Source: Aquipseudomonas alcaligenes (GTDB lineage Bacteria > Pseudomonadota > Gammaproteobacteria > Pseudomonadales > Pseudomonadaceae). From it: a DNA stretch of 64,000 bases. Positions 15,062 to 15,170 of this stretch are shown here, piece after piece. Positions within the stretch are counted from its first letter, which is position 1; each line of letters begins with the position of its first letter. A program made the position numbers and the translations under genes. The DNA lies in the NCBI RefSeq assembly GCF_003205495.1, contig NZ_QJRX01000006.1, positions 62,001 to 126,000 of the forward strand, in the 5' to 3' direction. The notes under the pieces are model-generated. The model saw only the letters and a program-made list of their open reading frames with translations. It had not been told where the DNA came from and made no database searches.

Positions 15062-15078
15062 TGCACCAATGCTGTGCA
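15062..15078 (+). promoter_or_regulatory. NtrC-type enhancer site upstream of glnK
   Basis: TGCACC-N5-TGTGCA matches the NtrC dyad TGCACC-N5-GGTGCA at 11 of 12 arm positions. Its centre lies about 110 bp before the predicted start of transcription from the sigma-54 promoter at 15155, the usual enhancer distance. The 402-bp ubiK-glnK interval otherwise holds only a GC-rich leader. Confidence 0.75.
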
Positions 15079-15154
15079 ATGACTGATCGGTCGTTGTTGT
15101 GGCGATTTCTGCGGTCCGCCCTAACTGCATGAAAAAGTGGCCTTTTGGCATAGC

Positions 15155-15170
15155 TGGCAAGCTTTCTGCT
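15155..15170 (+). promoter_or_regulatory. Sigma-54 (RpoN) promoter for glnK-amtB-amtB2
   Basis: TGGCAAG-N4-CTGCT has the -24 GG and -12 GC exactly 10 bp apart, with one mismatch in each of the two blocks. It predicts a transcript start near 15180 and an untranslated leader of about 180 nt before glnK. Together with the NtrC-like site it predicts induction under nitrogen limitation. Confidence 0.8.

Follow-up and report, generated by a model that had tools for sequence, protein, structure and literature searches.

Few nitrogen operons have been studied as closely as glnK–amtB, where attention has centred on NtrC and on the plugging of AmtB by GlnK. The locus described here lies in a 64,000-nucleotide stretch of an Aquipseudomonas alcaligenes contig (NZ_QJRX01000006.1, positions 62,001 to 126,000; hereafter the window), and it raises the question of whether a nitrogen-controlled promoter accounts for everything upstream of the first ammonium transporter gene, or whether the long leader of glnK contributes to control as well. 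A prior inspection of the same DNA (the sequence-only reading) had described NtrC/sigma-54 control of glnK and of the pair of Amt genes that follows it. The features on which our analysis rests are collected in Table 1.

Table 1. Features of the glnK–amtB1–amtB2 locus, in window coordinates
Feature	Coordinates	Strand	Sequence or remark
Distal NtrC-like dyad, weaker	15029..15045	+	TGCACG-ATTTT-CGCTCA; 8/12 to consensus
Proximal NtrC-like dyad	15062..15078	+	TGCACC-AATGC-TGTGCA; 11/12 vs TGCACC-N5-GGTGCA
Sigma54 -24/-12 promoter	15155..15169	+	TGGCAAGCTTTCTGC; GG 15156-15157, GC 15168-15169
Hairpin A	15189..15209	+	GCACCG-(9 nt)-CGGTGC; near leader 5' end
Conserved TAGACT	15301..15306	+	candidate -10 box, second promoter; lies in leader stem
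Leader hairpin	15303..15336	+	stem GACUUG/CGAGUC; loop holds alpha and beta
Segment alpha	15313..15318	+	GGGUUC; complementary to alpha' (15704-15709)
Segment beta	15320..15332	+	UUUUCCUGGGGCG; anti-Shine-Dalgarno for amtB1
glnK	15359..15697	+	P-II family protein, GlnK type, 112 aa
Segment alpha'	15704..15709	+	GAACCC; directly past glnK stop codon
Segment beta'	15714..15726	+	CGCCCCAGGAGAA; holds amtB1 Shine-Dalgarno AGGAG (15720-15724)
amtB1	15733..17049	+	ammonium transporter; next gene after glnK
Two hairpins in first amtB1 codons	15739..15766	+	CUGCG-N6-CGCAG, GGGCU-N3-AGCCC
Intrinsic-terminator-like hairpin	17065..17092	+	CGCCCGG-TCCG-CCGGGCG-TTTTT; amtB1/amtB2 gap
amtB2	17144..18394	+	second ammonium transporter, after amtB1

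The promoter itself is as the sequence-only reading had it. A -24/-12 element with the exact GG-N10-GC spacing stands before glnK, and counting from the C of its -12 box predicts a transcription start near 15181. This places the centre of the proximal dyad (15070) 111 bp upstream, where a distance of about 110 bp had been given for the same 11/12 match, and it leaves a predicted leader of 178 nt up to the ATG at 15359, close to the 180 nt proposed. A second, weaker dyad, 33 bp farther from the promoter than the first, had been overlooked; in the same-genus alignment many relatives carry a stronger version of it, TGCACGCTTTTCGCGCA, at unchanged spacing. A scan of the window for NtrC and RpoN motifs recovered both, but at frequencies not above chance: the exact sigma54 pattern occurs twice where 1.22 matches are expected, and dyads with up to two mismatches occur eight times against 6.94 by chance, the proximal dyad being the sole match with no more than one mismatch. 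Because these counts are at chance level, the motifs are insignificant by themselves, and it is their conservation across the genus that leads us to accept promoter and dyad as real. Among 36 same-genus loci (the genome studied and 35 others), the -24/-12 element is kept in every one, and in 34 a GCAC-N7-(G/T)TGC dyad is found at a distance of 90-92 bp upstream of the -24 box, the exceptions being one locus without any dyad (L006) and one with the dyad at -123 (L036). Both rpoN and ntrC are present in the same genome, above curated cut-offs.

Published work on related Pseudomonas points the same way. In P. stutzeri A1501 the glnK promoter has a predicted NtrC site, loss of ntrC lowers glnK to 0.14-fold, and both amtB1 and amtB2 are described as cotranscribed with glnK (PMC8443478). 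For P. aeruginosa, EMSA showed NtrC bound to the promoter region of glnK, whose expression is NtrC-dependent, according to PMC12942738, which cites Hervas 2009 for P. putida. The claim of NtrC/sigma-54 control of glnK is thus supported by a conserved promoter and dyad anatomy together with these reports, and the nitrogen-controlled promoter of glnK is real, ordinary and already known. The inclusion of both Amt genes under this promoter is weakened in the case of amtB2, since the intrinsic-terminator-like hairpin in the amtB1/amtB2 gap (-21.4 kcal/mol with its T run and z -2.88 on folding) makes simple co-expression of amtB2 with amtB1 uncertain; this hairpin is absent from the output of the terminator scan of the window. 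A weak Rfam match to istR falls on the hairpin after amtB1, not on the leader, and was discarded as a leader family.

The glnK leader, for its part, is no passive stretch. Across the alignment of 36 genomes, the final 85 nt or so of the leader belong to the best-conserved parts of the entire upstream region. In most relatives hairpin A has a longer loop and reads GCACTG..CAGTGC, the pattern being present in 32 of 36 loci; it is possibly an RNA hairpin or a protein site. A second hairpin (-16.8 kcal/mol by itself), in which segment alpha is paired to segment beta, lies a short way before the ribosome site of glnK; its stem is GACUUG/C(A/G)AGUC, its loop reads GGGUUC(U)G-UUUU-CCUGGGGC in the clade of the window, and 97.2% of the stem cells are paired across 37 sequences. 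The fold of the whole leader is ordinary for its composition (z only -1.16), so that local structure alone is no argument, and a search of Rfam up to E 5 gave no family for the leader.

Beta is complementary to beta' in the ribosome-binding region of amtB1, approximately 400 nt downstream, with which it forms a predicted helix of 13 continuous base pairs (-28.1 kcal/mol by stacking); 26 nt separate its 3' end from the ATG of glnK. By partition function, the amtB1 Shine-Dalgarno sequence AGGAG is paired with the leader at a probability of 0.93-1.0 in every model transcript that carries beta (starts at 15181, 15312 or 15318) and unpaired at only 0-0.05, as against 0.32-0.97 unpaired in the transcript that starts after beta, at 15338. 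As a partner of the glnK leader, amtB1 ranks first among the 87 Shine-Dalgarno-preceded ORF starts in the window. The beta' sequence CGCCCCAGGAGAA occurs three times in the genome; the amtB1 copy alone is at ribosome-site distance from a start codon, and the two others were accordingly rejected as targets of beta. For amtB2, considered as a second target, no complementary stretch was noticed by eye. Read from its 5' end, the mRNA presents alpha and beta, then glnK, then alpha' and beta', and finally amtB, an order in which the two long-range helices cross in the manner of a pseudoknot. Short linkers join the two segments on either side of glnK and would permit a compact pseudoknot as well as pairing in succession. 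The leader hairpin competes with this long-range pairing.

To survey the pairing we used 157 loci in which an ORF of at least 200 codons starts no more than 150 nt from glnK, comprising 99 Pseudomonadaceae with an MTLR-type amtB and 58 others; a locus was left out if its leader or intergenic piece was too short or if the next start lay more than 150 nt away. RNAduplex with loops, run on 94 x 40 nt, left the Pseudomonas loci mostly inseparable from shuffles, and the best uninterrupted helix replaced its energies as the measure of pairing. Against dinucleotide-shuffled leaders, this helix reaches p <=0.05 in 97/99 Pseudomonadaceae and 15/58 others. The predicted probability of leader/Shine-Dalgarno pairing exceeds 0.5 in 92 loci of the family and 16 outside it, and 0.9 in 83 and 13, respectively. 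Its maximum is 0.5 or less in seven of the 99 family loci (L131, L194, L200, L023, L193, L180, L006), and leader/amtB complementarity is absent from two of them (L193, L200) and from 43 of the 58 loci outside the Pseudomonadaceae.

The two strands vary together. Beta and beta' pair as UACUUCUGGGGC/GCCCCAGGAGUA in L042, L043, L179 and L192 and as UCCGGGGCG/CGCCCCGGG in L194; L006, L007, L036, L180 and L184 have AAUUCC/GGAGUU instead of UUUUCC/GGAGAA; and L178 shows a matched one-base loss on both sides (UCCUGGGCGAG/CUCGCCCAGGA). Alpha and alpha' do likewise, with GGGAUCGU/ACGAUCCC in L191, GGGCCGA/UCGGCCC in L184, GUGGGGUU/GACCCCAC in L192 and GGGUUCGUA/UACGAACCC in L042 and L179. Outside the family the pairing is spelled in different letters: CAGCCCCCC/GGGGGGCUG in L171, AGCCCCCCGG/CUGGGGGGUU in Kistimonas (L054), ACCCCUCCCGG/CUGGGAGGGGU in L174, UCUCCUGCGAAGUG/CACUUCGCAGGAGA in L157 and L161, and CCCCCAACCU/AGGUUGGGGG and UCUCCCGACCUU/AAGGUCGGGGGA in Acinetobacter (L061, L068).

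When leaders and intergenic pieces were re-paired among 27 lineages, which had been picked after the helix p values were seen and include seven with helix p >0.05 (L053, L056, L109, L153, L155, L169, L197), 0/20000 re-pairings reached the true total, and the result was likewise 0/20000 for the 16 lineages without a Pseudomonas-type beta. For alpha, alignment-based pair counts were rejected, MAFFT having moved alpha' by one column in some rows, and a permutation was used instead: 0/5000 re-pairings of 66 distinct Pseudomonadaceae pairs reached the observed total, with L141 and L142 mis-parsed and scored zero and L193 and L200 (2/99) unparsed. A further test on an alignment of 37 sequences, which takes in the beta helix together with the stem of the leader hairpin and the hairpins at the amtB start, found 91.5% of cells paired compared with 37.6-56.4% when the alignment was slid, and eight pairs changed on both sides compared with 3.2 +/- 0.7 in shuffles (0/500), relatedness not being fully removed in either comparison; the beta helix alone has 87.2% paired cells. 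In genus g36 (L042, L179, L181), where the gap between glnK and amtB widens to 107-133 nt, alpha' and beta' stay beside amtB. From these sequence comparisons, the existence of the leader/amtB pairing is well supported.

Genus g26 (L188, L195-L198) has a different Amt gene after glnK. The Shine-Dalgarno sequence of that gene, GGGGGG, lies within its own AAGCC/GGCTT hairpin, and the leader has CCCCC in place of CCTGGGG.

The beginning of amtB is unusual in its codons as well. Across 94 loci (15733-15770), codons 2-13 are frozen at synonymous sites, with ACT in 94, GCA in 93, GGG in 94, CTA in 80, GGA in 81 and TTG in 87; elsewhere in the amtB1 of the window GGG, GGA and CTA are never used and GCA is used twice. 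These codons fold as two adjacent hairpins (Table 1). Judged by this codon usage, the amtB start is under constraint as RNA too. In L189 and L194, amtB1 is apparently disrupted near its start, where the frame differs or a CTG start codon is followed by an early stop; the leader element is retained in both.

The most likely reading is that a long-range RNA element ties the translation of amtB to the glnK leader, a function that we infer from the position of the pairing. We consider it probable, as an explanation of the whole locus, that an NtrC/RpoN-dependent mRNA masks its own amtB1 start by pairing with the leader and that ribosomes on glnK relieve the block. In low nitrogen, phosphorylated NtrC on the two dyads would activate RpoN polymerase at 15155-15169, yielding a glnK-amtB1 mRNA with a long leader. 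Beta would then cover the ribosome-binding region of amtB1, and alpha would bind directly past the glnK stop codon, two pairings that are pseudoknot-like in order and may form in turn rather than together. As long as the pairing is intact, translation of amtB1 would be blocked, and ribosomes starting or finishing glnK would disrupt it, alpha' being within the reach of a ribosome that terminates on glnK. If glnK ribosomes open the amtB site in this manner, synthesis of AmtB would therefore depend on that of GlnK, its inhibitor, and would not occur without it. In an alternative state, the leader's own hairpin, with alpha paired to beta, would free the amtB site; Hfq, nitrogen state or ribosome load may shift the balance. 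Termination-linked release is not likely to be general, given the gap of 107-133 nt in g36, and because alpha' and beta' lie far from glnK there, release by glnK initiation fits the family better. More tentatively, and as a possibility that we do not favour outright, the element may be a Pseudomonadales-wide, operon-internal switch, in which an anti-Shine-Dalgarno sequence renewed lineage by lineage would set the amount of transporter per GlnK, and in some groups the choice of promoter would determine whether it is present on the mRNA.

A simpler account would leave the leader as a passive 5' UTR, with its conserved block a sigma70-type promoter (TAGACT as the -10 box) and its complementarity to amtB incidental. 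TAGACT is a possible second promoter, which would start RNA at segment alpha; it recurs upstream of the anti-Shine-Dalgarno sequence in several families, even where the bases that follow differ, and in many Pseudomonas a 4/6 -35-like hexamer can be drawn by eye 17 bp upstream. A sigma70 scan, however, gave no match here, and a promoter leaves unexplained both the covariation with a site 400 nt away, within and beyond the family, and the matched deletions in L178; we regard this account as very unlikely. The leader might also act in trans, if a fragment processed from it targeted amtB mRNA in the manner of a small RNA, perhaps together with Hfq. An anti-Shine-Dalgarno sequence bounded by a hairpin is typical of a small-RNA seed, and PMC11332353 reports an Hfq eCLIP peak in the amtB 5'UTR of A1501 and an approximately twofold rise of glnK and amtB RNA when hfq is missing, on which grounds Hfq, rather than the pairing, could be the true regulator in that strain. 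The lack of any Rfam match to the leader and of a terminator at its end in the terminator scan count against a separate small RNA. Since both partners lie on one mRNA, about 400 nt apart, pairing in cis is favoured, and we hold action in trans to be quite improbable.

Translation need not be what the pairing controls, for it could instead protect or destabilise the mRNA, through RNase access or 5'-3' bridging. The glnK-amtB junction is a plausible place for cleavage, and a role in stability would likewise conserve complementarity between leader and junction. Yet the pairing covers the Shine-Dalgarno sequence in Pseudomonas and, in other letters, in other lineages, including the paired GGGGGG-type sites of L054, L069, L171 and L197, and we judge this role unlikely. 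Another reading turns on promoter choice: in some groups the anti-Shine-Dalgarno sequence would be present only on upstream sigma70 transcripts, and amtB would be translated only from sigma54 ones. The anti-Shine-Dalgarno sequence does lie just upstream of a -24-like box in five Acinetobacter loci (L061, L062, L067, L068, L071) and again in L157/L161, and in those seven loci only transcripts from a farther-upstream promoter could therefore carry it. In Pseudomonas, by contrast, it lies downstream of the sigma54 promoter and within both possible transcripts, and the candidate Acinetobacter boxes read TTGAA at -12, so that the probability we assign to this reading is low.

If masking of the amtB1 start by the glnK leader is correct, ammonium uptake would gain a further, translational level of control in a large genus with soil, plant and clinical members, and the strong conservation of the leader would be accounted for. 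The pairing may also be relevant to the engineering of ammonium-excreting diazotrophs. We found no description of it in the paper listings and text passages that were searched.

Comparison with known systems places the two halves of the locus differently. The promoter resembles other Ntr promoters, such as those of enterobacterial glnA and glnK and of Pseudomonas glnK, in having NtrC dyads ahead of a -24/-12 element. Enterobacterial glnA has two dyads three helical turns apart; the two dyads here have about the same spacing, at roughly 110 and 144 bp before the predicted start. It differs from those promoters in being followed by a structured 178-nt leader whose predicted target lies far downstream, in the gene after glnK. 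In the alpha operon and in phage RNAs, a downstream start is masked by upstream mRNA and opened by upstream translation; the masking strand proposed here, unlike in those cases, precedes the start of the first gene and is not within coding sequence. Control of A1501 amtB by Hfq is similar in being post-transcriptional and located at the amtB 5'UTR, as is predicted here, and the accessible text of that account does not mention pairing with the glnK leader (PMC11332353). The nearest known kind of element is long-range masking of a ribosome-binding site, as in the bL20-controlled operon of Escherichia coli: according to PMC10931766, a long-range, pseudoknot-type pairing within the polycistronic infC-rpmI-rplT mRNA controls translation, as the pairing predicted here, pseudoknot-like in order, may do. 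That operator is bound by a protein and autogenous, whereas the element described here has no known protein ligand, its partners flank the whole of the upstream gene, and its target is a transporter gene.
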